A stretch of DNA of 21,050 nucleotides from a virus, in the IMG/VR virus record IMGVR_UViG_3300037882_001118, positions 1 to 21,050 of that record; one strand, 5' to 3'. Positions 3,953-21,050 of this stretch are shown here, piece by piece (the first letter of the stretch is position 1; each line of letters opens with the position of its first letter). The notes under the pieces are model-generated. The model did no database searches and was not told the DNA's origin. It worked only from the letters and a program-made list of their open reading frames with translations. The translations under genes and the position numbers were made by a program.

Positions 3953-5131
3953 ATGGACTATCGCGTACTTCGCCGCCAGTGTGAAGCGGCCCGTAAAGAC
4001 GGCAACCTTGAACCTTTGTTTGAGGACATCAAGGACGGCCTCGCAACGAAACAGATTCGTGCGGACGAGTTCTCGATTCGCAAGCTGTTCGAGGCGACTG
4101 TTCCCGGCGGCAATGAGATTGCTCAAAGCTGGCAACCGGGAAGCAAAGGCGTCAACCTCGCCGAAGCCGATCACGTCAGCCTGATGGAATCGGGAGCGAC
4201 TCTATCGAGTGCGTTTTCAAACATCACTGGCCAGATCGTTTACTCGGAAGTCATGGCGGCGAGTAAGGACGAAGCCTATGTCTTCACTCCGCTCGTTCGC
4301 GATGTTCCGACTCAGTTCAACGGCGAGAAGATCCCCGGCATCACTCGGCTTGGCGATACGTTCGAGTCGATTGGCGAAAATCAACCTTACCCGATTGCCG
4401 GAGTTGGCGAGGATTGGATTGAAACCCCGCAGACGGTCAAGCGTGGTGAGATCGTGCCGATCAGTAAAGAGGCTGTATTTTTCGACCGGACCGGCCTAGT
4501 GCTGGAGCGGTGTGCTGAACTCGGCCACTTCTACGGCGGCAATAAAGAGAAGCGAATCATCGACGCCATCATCGACGAGAACGTCACGACTCACCGATAT
4601 AAGTGGAAGGGAACGGCATACGCCACCTTCCAAGCATCGACTCCGTGGGTCAATCTGCAAACCAGCAATGCCCTGGTTGATTGGACCGACCTCGATGCAC
4701 TCGAACTTCTGATGAGCCAGATCGTCGATCCTCACACGGGCGAGCCGATCATGATTACGCCGAAGGATTTGATTGTCACTCGGCAATTGAAGAACACGGC
4801 CCGCCAGATCGTTCGTTCGCTGGAAGTTCGCAAGGGCGACGGGGCGAGCAACACGGCCGTGACGATTGGCGCGAGTCCGCTCGATACCGATTACCAAATC
4901 CGAAGCTCGGCGTTGCTCGCAAGCCGAATGGCGACCGACACAAGCTACTTCATCGGCGACATCGGCAAGGCGGTTCGCTATATGCAGAACTGGCCGATGA
5001 CTATCGACCAAGCTCCGGTCAACAGTGAAGTCGAGTTCACTCATGACATCATCAACCGCTGGAAGGTCAGCGAACGCGGTGCGGCTGTTGTGGTCGAGCC
5101 TCGTGCGTTGGTCAAATCGACGGTTGCCTGA
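3953..5131 (+). CDS. Major capsid protein (HK97-fold)
   Basis: A 392-residue protein of the size and position expected for an HK97-type major capsid protein: after protease/scaffold, before connectors, with a strong terminator behind it. The N-terminal 50 residues are charged and helical (KDGNLEPLFEDIKDG). The middle has typical capsid features, such as VPISKEAVFFDRTG and a P-domain-like stretch DPHTGEPIMITPKDLIV. The C-terminus EFTHDIINRWKVSERGAA, then VVVEPRALVKS, is the characteristic last beta-sheet ending seen in many such capsids. The ribosome site GGAG (3940-3943) is nine bases from the ATG. Whether the N-terminus is cleaved by the upstream protease cannot be read. The large antisense frame here is only a shadow. 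Confidence 0.88.
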   Translation: MDYRVLRRQCEAARKDGNLEPLFEDIKDGLATKQIRADEFSIRKLFEATVPGGNEIAQSWQPGSKGVNLAEADHVSLMESGATLSSAFSNITGQIVYSEVMAASKDEAYVFTPLVRDVPTQFNGEKIPGITRLGDTFESIGENQPYPIAGVGEDWIETPQTVKRGEIVPISKEAVFFDRTGLVLERCAELGHFYGGNKEKRIIDAIIDENVTTHRYKWKGTAYATFQASTPWVNLQTSNALVDWTDLDALELLMSQIVDPHTGEPIMITPKDLIVTRQLKNTARQIVRSLEVRKGDGASNTAVTIGASPLDTDYQIRSSALLASRMATDTSYFIGDIGKAVRYMQNWPMTIDQAPVNSEVEFTHDIINRWKVSERGAAVVVEPRALVKSTVA

Positions 5132-8168: not shown

Positions 8169-8591
8169 ATGGCAAGCGTGATACTTGACGGATGGAGCGA
8201 CCTTCCTGGCTATATCGAAGGCACGAAGCAAGACTCGAACGGGGACCGGCTATACGATCCTTTGGAGTTTACGTTTCGCGGTGCGACGCGGCTTGAGGTC
8301 ATTGCGTTAGATCGCAAGGTGGCTCAGTTGCTCCAGCAGGAGAACGCGACTGGCGGCGACGGCATGAAGTCTGAAATGGCGGCGTGCGAGTTCATCGCGT
8401 CGAAGCTGCAATCGTGGAACCTGACTGCAAAGGGGGTTCACTCTGTTCCGATCACTGCTGCGAATGTGGCTCGTCTGCAATACGAGTTGTTCGGTCGGTT
8501 GTATCGAATCATCCGCAACGAAGAAAAGAGCGATCCGAGGCCACCGGAGACACAACCAGCGGCGACGGACGAGGAACTGCTGGGAAACTAG
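8169..8591 (+). CDS. Tail assembly chaperone (lambda gpG-type)
   Basis: A 140-residue protein between the tail tube and tape measure genes, beginning MASVILDGWSDLPGY, with AAGGGGAA upstream. The short form is about the size of lambda gpG. It ends ELLGN encoded by CTG GGA AAC then TAG; GGGAAAC is a -1 slippery heptamer in the correct phase, so some ribosomes should continue into the downstream frame and make a longer chaperone of about 278 residues (end 9004). Such chaperones bind the tape measure during tube assembly and are not in the virion. Sequence similarity to lambda gpG itself is not visible; the call rests on position, size and frameshift signal. Confidence 0.75.
   Translation: MASVILDGWSDLPGYIEGTKQDSNGDRLYDPLEFTFRGATRLEVIALDRKVAQLLQQENATGGDGMKSEMAACEFIASKLQSWNLTAKGVHSVPITAANVARLQYELFGRLYRIIRNEEKSDPRPPETQPAATDEELLGN
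8582..8588 (+). promoter_or_regulatory. Programmed -1 ribosomal frameshift site GGGAAAC
   Basis: G GGA AAC sits in phase as X XXY YYZ immediately before the TAG at 8589-8591. After a one-base backward slip the ribosome reads CTA GTG AGC and continues without a stop to 9004. This is the same type of site as GGGAAAG in lambda G-T and is at the position where long-tailed phages conserve it. Confidence 0.8.
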
Positions 8592-9004
8592 TGAGCGGCG
8601 TCGGGTTGATATTGAATCACCCCCGCGTCGCTTATCGGGACTGCGATCACTGCCAAAAGTATCTCTACGACGAGGACACGGGCTTGGTTGAACTCGGTCG
8701 CGACGGCCAGCCAGAGATGCGATATGATGCGTGCCCGCCGCGATGTCGGTTGCCTGTTGACGAGCGTGGCCGGTCGTTGTGTCCGAAGGGAACTCCCGAG
8801 AATCCACGGAGCTTGTTGCCGATCATGGAGCAGTGCTATCAACACTATCGCGAATGCAGGGCTGTCGGGTCGTTCCCTGACGATCCGCTAGTTCGTCGCA
8901 ATGCGGCGGCGATTCGCGACGTTGAGGAAGTCGCTGAACAGAATCGGCAGAGCGAGTTCCAATCTGTTCTCGCCAGCCTTGCGATACGGGGGGCAACGCG
9001 ATGA
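8591..9004 (+). CDS. Frameshift-encoded C-terminal domain of tail assembly chaperone (gpT-type), Cys-rich
   Basis: A 137-residue reading frame in the -1 frame after the chaperone. A GTG at 8591 overlaps the upstream TAG, but the nearest purine-rich ribosome site is about 15 bases away, so expression mainly as the frameshift fusion is more likely. It begins VSGVGLILNHPRVAYRDCDH and holds a zinc-ribbon-like Cys set (CDHC, then CPPRC and CPKG, and later CYQHYREC). It ends with a helical stretch (EEVAEQNRQSEFQSVLASLA). The last codons overlap the tape measure start by ATGA. Cys pairs are not part of lambda gpT and are a distinctive feature. Confidence 0.7.
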   Translation: MSGVGLILNHPRVAYRDCDHCQKYLYDEDTGLVELGRDGQPEMRYDACPPRCRLPVDERGRSLCPKGTPENPRSLLPIMEQCYQHYRECRAVGSFPDDPLVRRNAAAIRDVEEVAEQNRQSEFQSVLASLAIRGATR

Positions 9005-11590: not shown

Positions 11591-12829
11591 ATGGCAACAC
11601 TCAGATGGATATCCGGTGCCCAAAGTGTGACGAACGTCTGGACGTTGACGCTATCGGGGACCGTCACGAGTCAGACGTATACAATCACGATTGGTAGCAA
11701 GACGATCACCTACACGGCTGACGGTTCGGCTACGCAGGCAATCATCTTCGCAGCATTGTTGGCATCATGGAATTCAACAAGCAACCCCGCTCCGGCAGAG
11801 TTCAAGGAACTCATCGCGACAGGCGGAGTAACGAATCTCGTGTTGACTGGTCGCGTGACTGGCCGTCCGCATGTTGTCGCGTTTACAACTGGTGGGGCAG
11901 CGACGGCAACGGCAACGGAAACCACGGCGGCAACAGGCCCGAACTTCCGCAATAATGGAGCAAACTGGACTGGTGGAGCGGCCCCTGCAAACGGCGATAC
12001 GCTCGTTTATGATTCTGGGAACGTGCCGTGCAAGTATGGCTTCACGGCGGCGTTGACGACGTTGACGACGAAAATCGAGCCTGGCTATGGCGGCTATATC
12101 GGGTTGCCGGATGTCAACACGGACGGGCTGCCGTATCACGAATATCGCGACACGTCCTACGTTCAAGAGGGTGGCACGCTCGTCGTCAACAGCGGTAACG
12201 TGTCGCTTGTTCGCGTCTATTTCGGAACAACGGCGTTTACAGCACGATCACTTCAGACGGGACAGCGTACCGATCCGAATGCTCCCGTTGTGTTGCTGAC
12301 GGGCGGGGCGGCGAGTTCCGAGTGTGACGTGAGCCGAGGCGATGTCGGGCTGGCGGTATATGCTGGCGAGACGGCGAACTGTCCGACGATCCAAATGAGC
12401 TACGTTAGCCAATCGGCATCTGATGCGAGGGTAATAGGCGGGACCGGATTGACTGTGACGACGATCACAAAGAGCGGCGGAACGCTGGAACTCAACAGCA
12501 GCGTGACGACGTTGACGCAAGACCCGAACGGTGGAACGACAACGATACAGGCTGGATCGGTGACGACGCTGAACGTCAACGGCGGAACTGTGGTCTATAA
12601 CTCGACCGGCACACTCGCGACGGCGAATGTCCGCAATGATGGCGTTCTTGACTTCAACCAAGACCCGCGTGGAAAGACGATCACGAATCCGATCAACGCC
12701 TATGGGCCGAATGCGTTCGTGAAAGATTCGCAAAAGAATGTCAACAGCGGAGTTCTTTCTCTCGTGACTGTTGGCACACCGCTCGCGAATATCGACCATT
12801 CGGTTAGCAACACGATCAGCCTGACGTGA
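11591..12829 (+). CDS. Beta-helix-like minor tail protein, long paralogue
   Basis: A 412-residue protein with GAGGT six bases before the ATG. Residues about 1-115 form a beta domain (SQTYTITIGSKTITYTADG). Residues about 116-285 match the second paralogue at 15412-16347, sharing TGPNF/SGPYF, IGLPDVNTDG/IGLPFMNADG, YxEYR and AxxGETA motifs. Residues about 286-360 form successive rungs of 18-19 residues (SGGTLELNSSVTT, NGGTTTIQAGSVTT, NGGTVVYNSTG, NDGVLDFNQD), the look of a parallel beta-helix. Such proteins are usually tail-tip or fibre components that touch the host surface. Function is inferred from fold pattern and location. Confidence 0.6.
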   Translation: MATLRWISGAQSVTNVWTLTLSGTVTSQTYTITIGSKTITYTADGSATQAIIFAALLASWNSTSNPAPAEFKELIATGGVTNLVLTGRVTGRPHVVAFTTGGAATATATETTAATGPNFRNNGANWTGGAAPANGDTLVYDSGNVPCKYGFTAALTTLTTKIEPGYGGYIGLPDVNTDGLPYHEYRDTSYVQEGGTLVVNSGNVSLVRVYFGTTAFTARSLQTGQRTDPNAPVVLLTGGAASSECDVSRGDVGLAVYAGETANCPTIQMSYVSQSASDARVIGGTGLTVTTITKSGGTLELNSSVTTLTQDPNGGTTTIQAGSVTTLNVNGGTVVYNSTGTLATANVRNDGVLDFNQDPRGKTITNPINAYGPNAFVKDSQKNVNSGVLSLVTVGTPLANIDHSVSNTISLT

Positions 12830-12836
12830 GGACGTG

Positions 12837-14687
12837 ATGCCGGACCAACAGCAAGCCAAGTTCACATATCCCGGAATACAGTCCGTCGAAGAATTGGACA
12901 TGACCGACATCGCGGGCGTTTCGCCGTCTACAATCTCGATTCAGTGTTATCCCCAATGGGGACTGCCGAAGATCGAAGGCGATTTGGTTCTGACGCAGGA
13001 CGGACGCAAGGTCACGATAAAAAAGTGCCGCATCGGTTCGGCAAACTATACGCGGAACAGCGGCGGTCAAATTGTGTCCGTGATGCTGACGGATGAGCGG
13101 TGGAGATGGGGCAAAGGCTATGTGATAACGGGCCGCTACAACACGCGGCTTCCGAACAACGAAGTCGATCCGTTTCGCGAGAAGAAACCGGTAGAGCTTG
13201 TAAAGTTGCTGTTCGATGCAATGGATGTCTCGAACTATGAGGCCGATCTAGTCGAGAGCGATGCCGACATTGCGGCAGCGAGGCCGGATATAGATTGGGA
13301 CGTGAGCAACCCCGCTCAAGAGTTGCAATCTCTGTTGGACTCGTTTGGGCTGCGTCTAGTACCTCGCCGAACAGATGGCAAGTTCGTCATTTGCCGCACT
13401 GGTGAAGGTGCTACGCTTGCAGCGGACAACCGGCCATACCAAGACCCGAGCGAGGGCATCGACCCGCAAGAGGTGCCGGACGCTTTGACTGTATTCGGTC
13501 CGCCGATCCGGCATCAAGTGCGATTGGAATTAGAGGCCGTTGGTCGTGAGATATGGGACGAAGCGAAGCAACCTTCGCCGATTCCGAGCGATCCGTTATT
13601 ACCTAGACCGACAGACAATGCGGACGGTTCGATCAAGCCGATTGACGAGCTAACGTATGCTCCGAAGATTGCAGGCGTCGCCAATTGGAAGCAGTTCGAC
13701 GAAGATTGTACGCAGATAGATCGAGTGCGAGTGAAACAACCGGACGGATCGTTGCACTCACCTCAAGACTTGGCTCGGCAGTCTGTTTACAGAATGTATC
13801 GCGTGAAAGCCGACGCCGACGGCAAGATCATAATCCCGAGCTATAGCGATCCGGTCAGCGGAGAAAATACAGTCACGCGGAAACAACTGATTCTCACGAA
13901 TGAATTGCTCGACGAGTACATTGACCCGGATGGAGCGAAAAAGATTCAACCGGCTTTCTGTGATTTTGTCGGGTTCTATACTGGCTGGGAAGGCACTGGA
14001 AACGCAAAAGGCGGAACACGTCTTGAGGCGGGAACAGACGTTGACGGCGAAGCCACTGAAACAGTCACGTTTTCAATCAATCTCGATGGCCAATTGCAAA
14101 CAATCAGCTTCTCAAAAGCGATGATGCGATACAACGACGGCCAAACATCCGGCGACATTCTCCCGGCGAAGATATGGCTGACGTGTGCGGTCGAGATAAG
14201 GCATCCAGAAACGTGGCAACCGATTCGATACGAGAAGTCGAAACCTGTTCCGGGTGCCCCGCCGCTAGCGGCGAGAGCCAAGGCGAAGTTTATTCAACCA
14301 CTGAGGCACGATGACGTGAAGGCGTGGTTCAAAACATACTACGACATCGACGAGATGAGCGGAGAGGGGACCATCAGCGATTCAACGGATAACACGGCGA
14401 TTGCAGATACACAGGCCGACTACTATCTCGACTCGCAATTGAAGGCGATGGAAACAGTCAACAGCAAGACGCTGACGTTGATAGGTATTTGGCCGGTCGA
14501 TATGGACGGGGCAATCAACCAGATCAGCTACCGAATCTCAAAGTCTGGAGCAGACACAACCGTATCGCGTGGGACCGAACATGACGTTAGAATCCCGACG
14601 TACAAAGATCAGCAGCAACGCATCAAGCGGACGAAGTTGGCGAACGAGAAGGCAGCGGCAGACATGGCGGCGTTGAAGGCAAAATAG
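12837..14687 (+). CDS. Putative tail tip hub / tail-associated protein
   Basis: A 616-residue protein. ATG 12837 is preferred to the GTG at 12834 because of GAGGA (12828-12832). The N-terminal part shows features of tail hub proteins: a beta domain with ISIQCYPQWGLPKIEGDLVL, KVTIKKCRIGSA, LTDERWRWGKGYVITGRYN, then DSFGLRLVPRRTDGKFVIC. The middle is variable, and the C-terminus is a charged helix (QQQRIKRTKLANEKAAADMA). It is the largest tail-tip gene after the tape measure, as hub proteins usually are. No lysozyme or peptidase motif was seen. The hub role is inferred. Confidence 0.5.
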   Translation: MPDQQQAKFTYPGIQSVEELDMTDIAGVSPSTISIQCYPQWGLPKIEGDLVLTQDGRKVTIKKCRIGSANYTRNSGGQIVSVMLTDERWRWGKGYVITGRYNTRLPNNEVDPFREKKPVELVKLLFDAMDVSNYEADLVESDADIAAARPDIDWDVSNPAQELQSLLDSFGLRLVPRRTDGKFVICRTGEGATLAADNRPYQDPSEGIDPQEVPDALTVFGPPIRHQVRLELEAVGREIWDEAKQPSPIPSDPLLPRPTDNADGSIKPIDELTYAPKIAGVANWKQFDEDCTQIDRVRVKQPDGSLHSPQDLARQSVYRMYRVKADADGKIIIPSYSDPVSGENTVTRKQLILTNELLDEYIDPDGAKKIQPAFCDFVGFYTGWEGTGNAKGGTRLEAGTDVDGEATETVTFSINLDGQLQTISFSKAMMRYNDGQTSGDILPAKIWLTCAVEIRHPETWQPIRYEKSKPVPGAPPLAARAKAKFIQPLRHDDVKAWFKTYYDIDEMSGEGTISDSTDNTAIADTQADYYLDSQLKAMETVNSKTLTLIGIWPVDMDGAINQISYRISKSGADTTVSRGTEHDVRIPTYKDQQQRIKRTKLANEKAAADMAALKAK

Positions 14688-15411: not shown

Positions 15412-16347
15412 ATGACACAGAAAACATTCGTCAATAACGCGGCGGCGACAAAAGAGCAATATACGATCACCGTTGGCGGTACATGGGCCGGGGGTGACAC
15501 GATTAGCATCCCGATGAACAGTAAGAACCTGGTCATCACTATCGGCACGCTGGTCACAACGGCACAAGTGGCGACAACGATCAAGGAGGCATGGCAATCG
15601 GCTACGTCGTTTACCGACACAACGGCGAGTTGTGTTCCGCAAGGTGGTGGCACGTCAATTGGTGAGTTCTCGACGATGACGGCGACGGTATCCGGTTCGG
15701 TGGTGACGATCATCGGTGACACGGCTGGAGTGCCGCACACGATCAGTGCGTTGAGCGAAACGTCGGCGTCAGGTACGGTCACGCTAGGTCATCCAGTGAC
15801 GGCGAGCGGACCGTACTTCGCCGATAATGTGCTGAACTGGCTCGACGGAAGTCTCCCTGTTGACGGCGACGATATCATCATCAACGGTGCGTTCCAGATG
15901 CTATACGGGTTCGCGGCGTTCAGCGGTGTGCAACCGGCGACGATCACGATTGGCGAACGCTGCGGAGCGACAACGCAGATCGGTTTGCCGTTCATGAACG
16001 CGGACGGCTACAACGAATATCGGACGACGGAATGGTCTATCGGCCCAGTTGTGTTGAACGTGCGAGGGACTGCGGGACTGGTGAAGATCAACTGCGGCAG
16101 CGACGTTTTCGCAGCGAGCATATACAGCAGCGGAACGAGTCTTGAACCGGGATTTTCTCCGATCCAGATACGTGGAACCAATGCCTCAAATGTGGTCAAC
16201 GCATACGGCGGGAACACGTCGGTCGCGGCTCGTGGCGAGACGGCTACAGTTGCGACGGCGAGACAAAGTGGTGCGGGCCGACTGACTCTCGGGAATGCCG
16301 TTGCCTTCACGACGCTGAGCGGCCAGATTTTCATCATCGCGGACTGA
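15412..16347 (+). CDS. Beta-helix-like minor tail protein, short paralogue (truncated C-terminus)
   Basis: A 311-residue protein with GAGGAAA upstream. It is a diverged paralogue of the 412-residue protein at 11591-12829: both have an N-terminal beta domain, then TASGPYF with NVLNWLDGSLPVDGD, IGLPFMNADGYNEYRTT, and VAARGETATVATARQS. It ends LSGQIFIIAD, level with the first beta-helix rung of the long copy, so about 108 C-terminal residues, including the remaining rungs, are absent. The homing endonuclease gene begins 85 bases later, making an insertion-linked loss plausible. It may still be a functional, shorter fibre part. Confidence 0.6.
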   Translation: MTQKTFVNNAAATKEQYTITVGGTWAGGDTISIPMNSKNLVITIGTLVTTAQVATTIKEAWQSATSFTDTTASCVPQGGGTSIGEFSTMTATVSGSVVTIIGDTAGVPHTISALSETSASGTVTLGHPVTASGPYFADNVLNWLDGSLPVDGDDIIINGAFQMLYGFAAFSGVQPATITIGERCGATTQIGLPFMNADGYNEYRTTEWSIGPVVLNVRGTAGLVKINCGSDVFAASIYSSGTSLEPGFSPIQIRGTNASNVVNAYGGNTSVAARGETATVATARQSGAGRLTLGNAVAFTTLSGQIFIIAD

Positions 16348-16431: not shown

Positions 16432-17175
16432 ATGGCTGAACAAACTTTACGACTGCTAGAGGATCACAGCAAGAGTGGCGTCTACCAGATTTTGAACACC
16501 GTCACCGGAAAGAGGTACGTTGGGAGTGCGGTGAATTTCCAGCAGAGATGGCACTCCCATAGAAATAAGCTCAAGAAAGGTCTTCATCATAGCCAGCGTC
16601 TACAAAACTCATGGAACAAACATGGCGGCGATGCGTTTCAGTTCATCGTTCTGGAATACACATCTCGCGAACTGGCGGTTGAGATTGAACAAAAATACAT
16701 CGACCATCATCAGTCTTTCGACCCAAAGTGCGGGTACAACATTGTCCCCAAGGCTGGATCGACCATAGGCAGAAAAGCGTCGCCGCAAGCCATACAGCGA
16801 CAGTCGGAGGCGATGCTAAGGAGATTTGCAAACCCAGAAGCTAGGGCGGAACTTTCGCGGTCACACAAGGCTAGGTATAAAGACCCGGACGCGAGAAAAA
16901 GGCAAGCAGACGGATTACGGAAGACGTGGGCTAGACCTGAAATTCGATTAAAGATAAAGGCGGCGTTCGTAAATCGTTGGGCTGACCCACAAGAGCGACA
17001 GAAGCAGTCGGAAAGAGTAAAGAAGCGGTACGAAGACCCGGAACAGAGAAAAAAGTCCGGGATGTCGTTCTTGGGTAAAAAGCACAGTGCCGAGACTATA
17101 AGAAAAATGTCCCTAGCGGCTTTCGCGAGAAAGCGAAAGCCGCGACTGGTACCAAGGCAACTGCTTCTGTTTTAG
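16432..17175 (+). CDS. GIY-YIG homing endonuclease, I-TevI-like, with 17-residue repeat array
   Basis: A 247-residue free-standing endonuclease with a strong site (AAGGAGAG) before the ATG. Residues 15-110 closely follow the I-TevI catalytic domain: SGVYQI (GVY 16-18), KRYVGSA (YVG 29-31), Arg39 in QQRW (I-TevI Arg27), SWNKHG, Glu86 in EIEQKYI (I-TevI Glu75), and GYNI. Residues 131-208 are five tandem 17-residue repeats: an aromatic (132, 149, 166, 183, 200), Pro (135, 152, 169, 186, 203) and Arg (138, 155, 172, 189, 206) each recur at exactly 17. Residues 215-227, GKKHSAETIRKMS, look like a NUMOD3 DNA-binding motif. It likely cuts an allele lacking it and spreads by homing. It is not inside a recognisable intron. 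Confidence 0.88.
   Translation: MAEQTLRLLEDHSKSGVYQILNTVTGKRYVGSAVNFQQRWHSHRNKLKKGLHHSQRLQNSWNKHGGDAFQFIVLEYTSRELAVEIEQKYIDHHQSFDPKCGYNIVPKAGSTIGRKASPQAIQRQSEAMLRRFANPEARAELSRSHKARYKDPDARKRQADGLRKTWARPEIRLKIKAAFVNRWADPQERQKQSERVKKRYEDPEQRKKSGMSFLGKKHSAETIRKMSLAAFARKRKPRLVPRQLLLF
17116..17143. repeat. Perfect inverted repeat at the end of the endonuclease gene
   Basis: GCGGCTTTCGC (17116-17126), loop GAGAAA, GCGAAAGCCGC (17133-17143): an 11-bp perfect stem inside the last codons of the endonuclease, about 30 bases before its stop. No U-run follows. It could stabilise the transcript, act as a weak terminator, or mark an element boundary. Confidence 0.5.
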
Positions 17176-18729: not shown

Positions 18730-19692
18730 ATGCCAACAATCATCGAAACACTAGGCATCTCGTGGCGGCTCTCTGTGCAAGAGTTCGCGACGCTGACCTA
18801 CGACCATCCTGAAGCGGGGTTCCTGCAATACACTGGAGACGTGCCTTGGCTGTGCAATAACGTCAACACGCTGAAACTGACTTCTCAGGGCAGTCTTGAC
18901 GACGGCATTCTTCCGCCGTCAGTTTGCATCCGGCCAAGTTATGACACGGCTGGATGCGGTTGCGATGTTGGCGACGAGAACCTGTATCCGGTGCCAGCCG
19001 ATAAGTGTGCTTGTGCCGATCCGGGTTGCTTGTTCAACGACTTCCTCGTTTTCAAGTGCGACGAGTGCGAGGAGCGATTCGACGGCACGGTGACAAAAAC
19101 GAGCGGCGGCGTGAACTGTCCCGACAGTCCGGCCTACCAGCTTGAGGCGACGCTATGCGGCGTAGTCGTCAAGATTGTGAGATACTGTTGTGGTGGCCAA
19201 TGGTATGCCGACTTCTACAACGACGGAATGTTATGCTTTACGGCGGCGACAGACAACGAGAAATGCCCACTCGTGATTGATCCAGCGTTCGGTTCGCAGT
19301 GTGCTGGTGATTGCACAACCGGCTGCATTGGTGGCGGGACTGACTGCGACGACGGTGTAGCCGATGATTGCTGCGATACCGAACCGGCGACAACGTATCT
19401 CGACGTGTCGAGTTCCGCATACACGGGAACAGTCACGATGACGGGCGGGGCGGGAACTCATTCGTGGGCTGGTGTTGACGGCGGGTTCGCCTGGACTGTG
19501 ACGTGTAGCAGCGGGACGTGGACTGTGGCTGGTACGTCTGGTGCGTCTGGGTGTTCGCTTAGCGGAACGGCATCGCTGGCAAGCTGCGATCCGATTGACG
19601 TAACATTCGCGGGGACGATATCGCAGATCGGAACGCCGCCGCCCACATGCGGTAGTGCGGGCGATCCATTCAACGCGACATTTATGGAGTGA
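18730..19692 (+). CDS. Second Cys-rich tail protein
   Basis: A 320-residue protein starting on the base after the previous stop, with 25 Cys by my count. Cys clusters include CGCD, CACADPGC, CDEC, YCCGGQW, CAGDCTTGC and DCCD in residues about 75-215. The C-terminal 100 residues are a Thr/Ser/Gly-rich beta domain (TGTVTMTGGAGTHSWAGVDG) ending in PFNATFME. It shares the pattern of Cys doublets next to Trp (CCxW-like) with its neighbour, hinting at related modules, though full-length similarity is not evident. It is probably exposed at the tail tip. No enzyme motif was seen. Confidence 0.6.
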   Translation: MPTIIETLGISWRLSVQEFATLTYDHPEAGFLQYTGDVPWLCNNVNTLKLTSQGSLDDGILPPSVCIRPSYDTAGCGCDVGDENLYPVPADKCACADPGCLFNDFLVFKCDECEERFDGTVTKTSGGVNCPDSPAYQLEATLCGVVVKIVRYCCGGQWYADFYNDGMLCFTAATDNEKCPLVIDPAFGSQCAGDCTTGCIGGGTDCDDGVADDCCDTEPATTYLDVSSSAYTGTVTMTGGAGTHSWAGVDGGFAWTVTCSSGTWTVAGTSGASGCSLSGTASLASCDPIDVTFAGTISQIGTPPPTCGSAGDPFNATFME

Positions 19693-19696
19693 CGAC

Positions 19697-20083
19697 GTGG
19701 GGGAAGAATGCGACCAATTTGAAGGCCGTTCGCGGGAGATATGTGAAGGCGCAATCTACGACGAGCGGCAGACGACCATCTGGCGAGCCAGACGCGGGTT
19801 GCCGTCTCTCGTCGAGCGGAATCCCCGCACACCGCGAGCGGCGATGGCACCGAAGCCAGCGGCGGCGAAGAAGCCGCTTCAACTTGGTGATGCCGTCGAG
19901 AAGGCATTGACGGCGGTGGGCATCACGTCCGAACGAGTGACGGCGTTCCTCGGTCGTGAGTGTGGTTGTGCCGAGCGGAAAGAGAAGTTGAATCGACTCA
20001 GTTCGTGGGCGGCGTCTTTCTTTACAGGGACGGCCGAACCGATCGAGAACATCATTCCGCCCGCCGTCGCAAAAAAAAAGTAG
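19697..20083 (+). CDS. Small Cys-containing protein ending in a slippery site (possible N-terminal part of a glycosyltransferase fusion)
   Basis: A 128-residue protein starting with GTG at 19697, after GGAG at 19686-19689 seven bases upstream. The N-terminus has CDQFEGRSREICEG, a short linker APKPAAAKKP follows, then a helical domain LGDAVEKALTAVGITSERVT leading to LGRECGCAERKEKLNRLSSW. I have seen this last motif in small proteins of related genomes but know of no function. The gene ends GCA AAA AAA AAG TAG; the A-run and stop form a -1 shift site into the glycosyltransferase frame. The product may therefore be made alone and as the front of a larger enzyme. Confidence 0.6.
   Translation: MGEECDQFEGRSREICEGAIYDERQTTIWRARRGLPSLVERNPRTPRAAMAPKPAAAKKPLQLGDAVEKALTAVGITSERVTAFLGRECGCAERKEKLNRLSSWAASFFTGTAEPIENIIPPAVAKKK
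20071..20083 (+). promoter_or_regulatory. Candidate -1 frameshift or slippage site (A9-G-TAG)
   Basis: Nine A residues (20071-20079) and a G form A AAA AAG in phase, directly followed by TAG (20081-20083). A -1 slip continues as GTA GAC GTT GCG GTT into the glycosyltransferase. The A-run also allows transcriptional slippage (adding one A) and is the kind of place where an assembly error can occur. Confidence 0.55.
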
Positions 20084-21050
20084 ACGTTGCGGTTGTCATC
20101 CCCGCTCACAACTACGGTCGATATCTCGACGAGTGTATCGACAGCGTTCAGTCGCAATCGTATCGACCGGCTGAGGTGTTGGTGGTCGATGACTCAAGCG
20201 ATGATGATACGCGGACAATCTGCGAACGGCGTGGAGTCAAGTATCTGCGGGTTGAGAATCGCAGCGTCTACTTCACTCGACGCGACGGGATGGACGCAAC
20301 GAAGTCGCCGTTGATTGTGTTCCTGGATGCGGATGATCGACTTGGGCCAACGTACATTGCCGAATGCGTTGCGGTGATGAACGCGGACCAGCGAACGGCC
20401 ATCGTCGCGAGCGGACTGCAACACTTCGGCGATTCGTCGAAGGTTGTCAATCACGTTCCATGCGAGATCGAGCGGCAGAACTGGATTCACGCAGGCTCGA
20501 TGGTCCGACGATTGGCGTTGGAAGTAACAGCGGCGTATGAGCGAACTACACCGCCGATCAACAGTCACGCCGGTTGGTTCGTCTGGCGTGAAGTGATTCG
20601 CGGCGGGTGGAATGCAGAGCGGATATCGTCGGCCAGTTACCTGTATCGGCAACATTCCGAGTCGATGTTGCGGGCCGAGAGATCGACCGACTATTACGAT
20701 GTCGCGTCGTTGGCGATGGAGCCAATCACGTTGGTTCTGCCGCTGTCAGGTCGCGAGCAGTATTGGCCGAGACTGTCGGCGTGGGCCGAGAAACAATCGC
20801 GGGTGACTGACATCATCGCGATTGATTCGTCGAGCGATCCCGCGTTCCGGGCGAAGGTGAAGGCGTGGTTGTGCGAGCGAGATGTTCGCTCGGAGAAGTA
20901 TATTGCGATGCCATCATCGAACGGGCTGGCTGACGCGGAACGCAAGATGGGGAACGCCGCCTATCACGGCGTACAGCGTGCGATGCCTCGCATCTATCGG
21001 CATCTCAGAGAATCACTGACGACCGAGTTTGCGATGATCGTCGAGGATGA
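20080..21050 (+). CDS. Family 2 glycosyltransferase, two GT-A-like domains (3' end missing; no own start visible)
   Basis: The frame is open from the slippage site to the window end (323 codons). It begins VDVAVVIPAHNYGRYLDECI, the first strand of a family 2 glycosyltransferase, with VVDDSS (Asp codons 20188-20193) for nucleotide binding and VFLDADD (20317-20337), the DXD metal site. A second GT-A-like unit starts near 20725 (ITLVLPLSG), with AIDSSSD and, at the window edge, MIVEDD. No ATG, GTG or TTG is usable without losing the first strand; the nearest upstream in-frame GTG is 20005, inside the previous gene and lacking a ribosome site. The enzyme would transfer a nucleotide-activated sugar, possibly onto virion proteins or host surface glycans. 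Confidence 0.78.

Follow-up and report, generated by a model that had tools for sequence, protein, structure and literature searches.

The junction at the end of the window

The DNA analysed here, an IMG/VR virus record of 21,050 nucleotides hereafter called the window, closes with a small late gene that runs directly into a glycosyltransferase encoded one reading frame back. The features discussed below are the following:

8169-9004: tail assembly chaperone with a −1 frameshift; GGGAAAC (8582-8588) touches a TAG stop (8589-8591), and the −1 frame is open to 9004
18730-19692, plus strand: upstream cysteine-rich late gene, whose stop lies 4 bases before the start of the small gene
19697-20083, plus strand: small gene of 128 residues with a GTG start and a TAG stop, of the CGCxxRxxxLN small-protein family; an SD-like GGAG lies 11 bases upstream
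19961-19995, plus strand: CGCAERKEKLNR motif of the small protein (found in 0 of 100 shuffles; family alignment A3)
20071-20079, plus strand: run of exactly nine A's followed by GTAG (20080-20083), proposed slippage site for RNA polymerase, the ribosome or both
20074-20080, plus strand: A_AAA_AAG heptamer, both slipping codons in phase with the 0 frame
20081-20083, plus strand: TAG stop of the small gene, touching the heptamer
20080-21050, plus strand: two-domain glycosyltransferase in the −1 frame, with a GT2 core (Pfam) followed by a PLSGR..W..ED domain; the contig end truncates the gene

The small gene ends GCA AAA AAA AAG TAG in the 0 frame, with the heptamer in phase against the stop, just as an earlier note on this DNA had described. 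Read in the −1 frame, the junction gives AAA GTA GAC GTT GCG GTT GTC ATC CCC, or K-V-D-V-A-V-V-I-P, the first strand of a GT2 enzyme, and this frame matches the Pfam family PF00535 with an E value of 4.6e-24, which bears out the note's claim that a glycosyltransferase continues at once from its first strand. The enzyme also lacks a plausible start, as the note had held, there being no ATG, GTG or TTG at the junction for its frame; the only in-frame candidates upstream are GTG 20005 and GTG 19960, neither of them preceded by an SD-like sequence of the kind found before most other gene starts in the window. The arrangement proper to slippage or frameshifting, a slip-prone sequence in phase at the end of the 0 frame with an open −1 frame, is thus present. 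The predicted fusion product reads ...PPAVAKKK-VDVAVVIPAHNYG..., and its junction-spanning stretch is AVAKKKVDVAVVIPAHNYGR, in which KKK is a trypsin cut site.

By itself the A_AAA_AAG heptamer is ordinary in this phage and not diagnostic. It occurs in phase inside three intact genes of the window (at 13019, 17049 and 18282), from which we conclude that it is probably not very efficient alone, and AAA-AAG is a common spelling of Lys-Lys among window genes that use 83 AAA and 193 AAG lysine codons. The unusual features are the nine A's, the adjacent stop and the continuity of the frame. This is the only run of at least seven A's in the whole window, and the AAA-AAA codon pair is found at this junction only. 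Under a first-order model of the window, the probability of at least nine A's in a given 30-nt stretch is 1e-4, and related loci of comparable composition, 1.33 Mb in all, contain five A/T runs of nine or more.

Judging by its genes, the window belongs to a family of Planctomycetota phages. Bacterial genomes contain 80 loci with relatives of its major capsid gene (3953-5131) at about 40-57% identity, almost all of them carrying the label of Planctomycetota or of one of its subgroups, and such relatives are also present in many IMG/VR contigs. The nearest relative, L242, reaches 68%. Those phages have head and tail genes of the window again in the same order. The −1 shift of the tail assembly chaperone, with a hairpin downstream (z −1.8), is of the ordinary kind and probably corresponds to the first of the two slippery junctions counted by the earlier note. 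Two apparently paralogous proteins of the tail region (11591-12829 and 15412-16347) match the same homologues, and a GIY-YIG endonuclease with a NUMOD3 motif (16432-17175), probably a homing endonuclease, sits among the late genes.

Homologues of the two halves

The glycosyltransferase joins a GT2 core, for which profile comparison gives a chondroitin synthase as the best solved relative, to a second domain carrying PLSGR..W and ED(D). In alignment A2 it lines up with 21 homologues at 32-44% identity and shows no stop, which argues that the core is translated now or was so until recently. Both domains align throughout, placing the enzyme in a family of two-domain phage glycosyltransferases whose members with both domains, found in Planctomycetota genomes and in IMG/VR, are 30-45% identical to it. 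These enzymes of Planctomycetota phages and prophages share with the window both domains, the gene position and an N-terminal extension, but all the others in A2 are continuous. In about 42 homologues the core and its extension lie in one open frame with a start of its own, very often an ATGA or GTGA overlapping the stop of the preceding gene. This count leaves out L415 and L416, which the search matched over the first domain alone. Chance ORFs outside the enzyme frame were disregarded wherever that frame carried an extension itself. In one relative with a capsid 49% identical (L318, from G021), the enzyme starts at a GTGA after a tail gene. The window enzyme departs from this family trait, its putative extension sitting one frame away.

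The extensions differ widely from homologue to homologue, comprising several kinds of cysteine-rich modules, methyltransferase-like or TubC-like domains, or almost nothing (L391, L409), and about half of the homologues have 3-12 cysteines in a defined N-terminal extension. Interchangeable cysteine-rich extensions, coupled through ATGA or GTGA to late genes, were seen in the phage or prophage loci L359, L364, L381, L384, L388, L394-L397, L403, L405, L411 and L414; such modules may be targeting or metal-binding domains. A methyltransferase-like domain stands ahead of the core in L363, L385, L402, L404 and L474, and L363 and L385 have a second glycosyltransferase copy with a TubC-docking-like N-terminus. 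DUF6171-like cysteine-rich segments, below the Pfam cut-off, either close these glycosyltransferases or immediately precede them (the C-termini of L359 and L384, and L361:7575-8042). The extension of the L403 enzyme has a homologue in G020 that stands as a free cysteine-rich protein (E about 1e-11), which indicates that modules of this kind occur both free and fused and makes a site yielding both forms plausible.

As for the small protein, it carries the signature of the CGC family, LGDxVEKxxxxxGI...CGCxxRxxxLN (A3), and aligns with 18 of its proteins (hhalign 97.6%, E 3e-12). Members of this family stand alone in many AT-rich phages, and two relatives of the window, G016 and G026, carry one in the corresponding position behind the tail genes. 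The gene that follows it in G026 starts at GTGA; it reads KKNLVMHVYPKSGG... (L319, 743-1492, minus strand), and the glycosyltransferases of L345 and L351 have a similar HIYP/HVTP domain fused behind them. A pattern search with the CGC motif gave zero matches in 392 Planctomycetota genomes, and the small protein used as a single-sequence query against 30 host genomes gave weak, noise-like matches only. The small gene begins 4 bases past the upstream stop, at the position where the genes of related glycosyltransferases have their starts, and it occupies the gene-order place of the N-terminal extension of the glycosyltransferase in relatives that share the upstream tail genes.

Proposed slippage on the nine A's and the alternatives

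Altogether, these sequence comparisons strongly support that 19697-20083 and the frame running from 20080 to the contig end at 21050 and beyond belong together as one protein or family gene, with its halves one frame apart at the nine A's. The earlier note had left the choice between a fusion made by slippage and a single gene split by a miscount: the in-frame homologues uphold the unity of the halves but do not choose between these options.

We favour slippage that joins the small gene and the enzyme and gives both a free module and a fusion, at a probability of roughly 0.55. The two halves would then form a single functional unit within the late operon of a planctomycete phage, with a CGC-type, cysteine-containing module at the N-terminus and the two-domain glycosyltransferase behind it. 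Ordinary decoding would release the free 128-residue module, and slippage on the nine A's would produce the fusion of module and glycosyltransferase. The slip could come from RNA polymerase inserting an extra A, from the ribosome shifting by −1 on A_AAA_AAG before the UAG, or from both, and the fusion would have an identical sequence in every case. The sequence, its frames, the homology of each half and the continuous frame in homologues are shown, whereas the occurrence of slippage, its rate and the use of both products are what we infer; any programmed use of the site would be hypothetical.

In many bacteria, selection against slippage can be seen once a run reaches nine A's, and about 50% slippage takes place on a run of this length in Thermus dnaX (PMC1088944). 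On the side of the ribosome, A_AAA_AAG is very shift-prone in E. coli, and a review of recoding mentions shifts in tailed phages that take place without stimulators (PMC5009743). The fold downstream of the nine A's does not exceed chance (z −0.05 to −0.7), a result on which RNA structure was rejected as a stimulator of a ribosomal shift, and no SD-like sequence was seen just upstream of the slip site to play such a role. The idea of the earlier note that the fusion is made at a set ratio accordingly finds no support in a stimulatory RNA structure. A stimulator is one of the marks looked for in a ribosomal shift, and polymerase slippage does not require one; since the tail-chaperone site of the same phage has a hairpin and the nine A's are followed by none, slippage by the polymerase is no less likely than a shift by the ribosome.

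Several known systems resemble the junction in part. The dnaX genes (A_AAA_AAG in E. coli, nine A's in Thermus) share with it the heptamer, the run length and two products with a common N-terminus, but the shifted product of dnaX is the shorter one, whereas the shift in the window would add a whole enzyme, and E. coli dnaX has stimulators of which none was found here. The G-GT −1 frameshift of tail assembly chaperones also lies in the late operon and makes a C-terminally extended minority product by a −1 join, although its site has the hairpin mentioned above and its products are assembly factors, not an enzyme. In the orfA/orfB fusions of IS elements, made by slippage or a −1 shift, an A-run likewise joins a small upstream ORF to a catalytic domain, but those sites are conserved across family members and the one in the window is not. 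A further parallel is found in the Ig-like extensions of phages, where one phage makes a given domain join by recoding and its relatives make it by ordinary decoding, as would be the case here; the route to extension domains differs between phages and may be −1, +1 or in-frame decoding (PMC5009743). These extensions, however, belong to structural proteins and not to a glycosyltransferase.

The main rival, clearly less probable than slippage, holds that the run is an in-frame A10 short of one A, through a sequencing or assembly miscount or through a real recent mutation, the normal gene being a continuous fusion of module and glycosyltransferase. In its favour, all the homologues surveyed are in-frame genes, homopolymers attract such errors and mutations, and the source is a metagenome contig. 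An intact A10 would itself be very rare in this GC-rich phage group, where 1.33 Mb of related loci hold one A/T run of ten or more, and no other gene of the window is broken, bar the ordinary tail-chaperone shift; its T7, A6, G6 and C6 runs all sit in intact genes. The lack of a stimulator and of a conserved site speaks again for a lost base: a slippery run was found at the junction in 0 of the approximately 42 homologues, all of them 30-45% identical. In a published classification of reading-frame transitions a conserved site marks programmed shifts while singletons are grouped with pseudogenes and errors (PMC3711429), a standard by which either reading may hold for this case. The earlier note had made the lack of a conserved run part of a case against its own proposal, and such a lack is what we find, yet the window gene, unlike its homologues, has no start of its own. 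Protein-based scans of IMG/VR and phage records gave no close relative of either half. Pattern scans of IMG/VR and GTDB with the CGC motif plus an A-run, the CGC motif plus the VVIP strand, the A-run and stop plus a GT2 start, or all three together (GTDB) revealed no second case, the matches being AT-rich chance hits, ordinary glycosyltransferases starting with KK, or in-frame fusions.

A separate start of the glycosyltransferase at GTG 20005 or GTG 19960, with its translation coupled to that of the small gene, seems improbable and was judged a weak candidate. Genes of this cluster are commonly coupled in translation, and the −1 frame has no stop as far back as 19960 and contains the two GTG codons, but both lack an SD-like sequence, homologues couple at an ATGA or GTGA on the upstream stop instead of 80-120 nt inside the gene, and the resulting leader of 25-40 residues is unlike any extension seen in them. 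Phase variation, in which the run would change length in replication and the population would mix fused (A10) and unfused (A9) genomes with the enzyme on or off, is more improbable still: homopolymer tracts do switch glycan genes in bacteria (e.g., PMC3068675) and nine A's could be unstable, but that is short for such a tract, no length variants were seen, and the tract is absent from all homologues.

Possible recoding and the exchange of extensions

Slippage on the nine A's remains our preferred reading. A further step, which we propose tentatively and hold at somewhat less than even odds, is that this one locus merges two arrangements carried separately by related phages, slippage giving both the free CGC-type module and the fusion with the glycosyltransferase. 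Phage recoding sites annotated so far lie mostly in tail chaperones and structural genes. The swapping of N-terminal, often cysteine-rich, extensions within this glycosyltransferase family suggests that the extensions steer the enzyme to different partners and, if our reading is true, a glycosyltransferase joined by slippage would be a case of recoding that lets one small module serve both on its own and as part of an enzyme.
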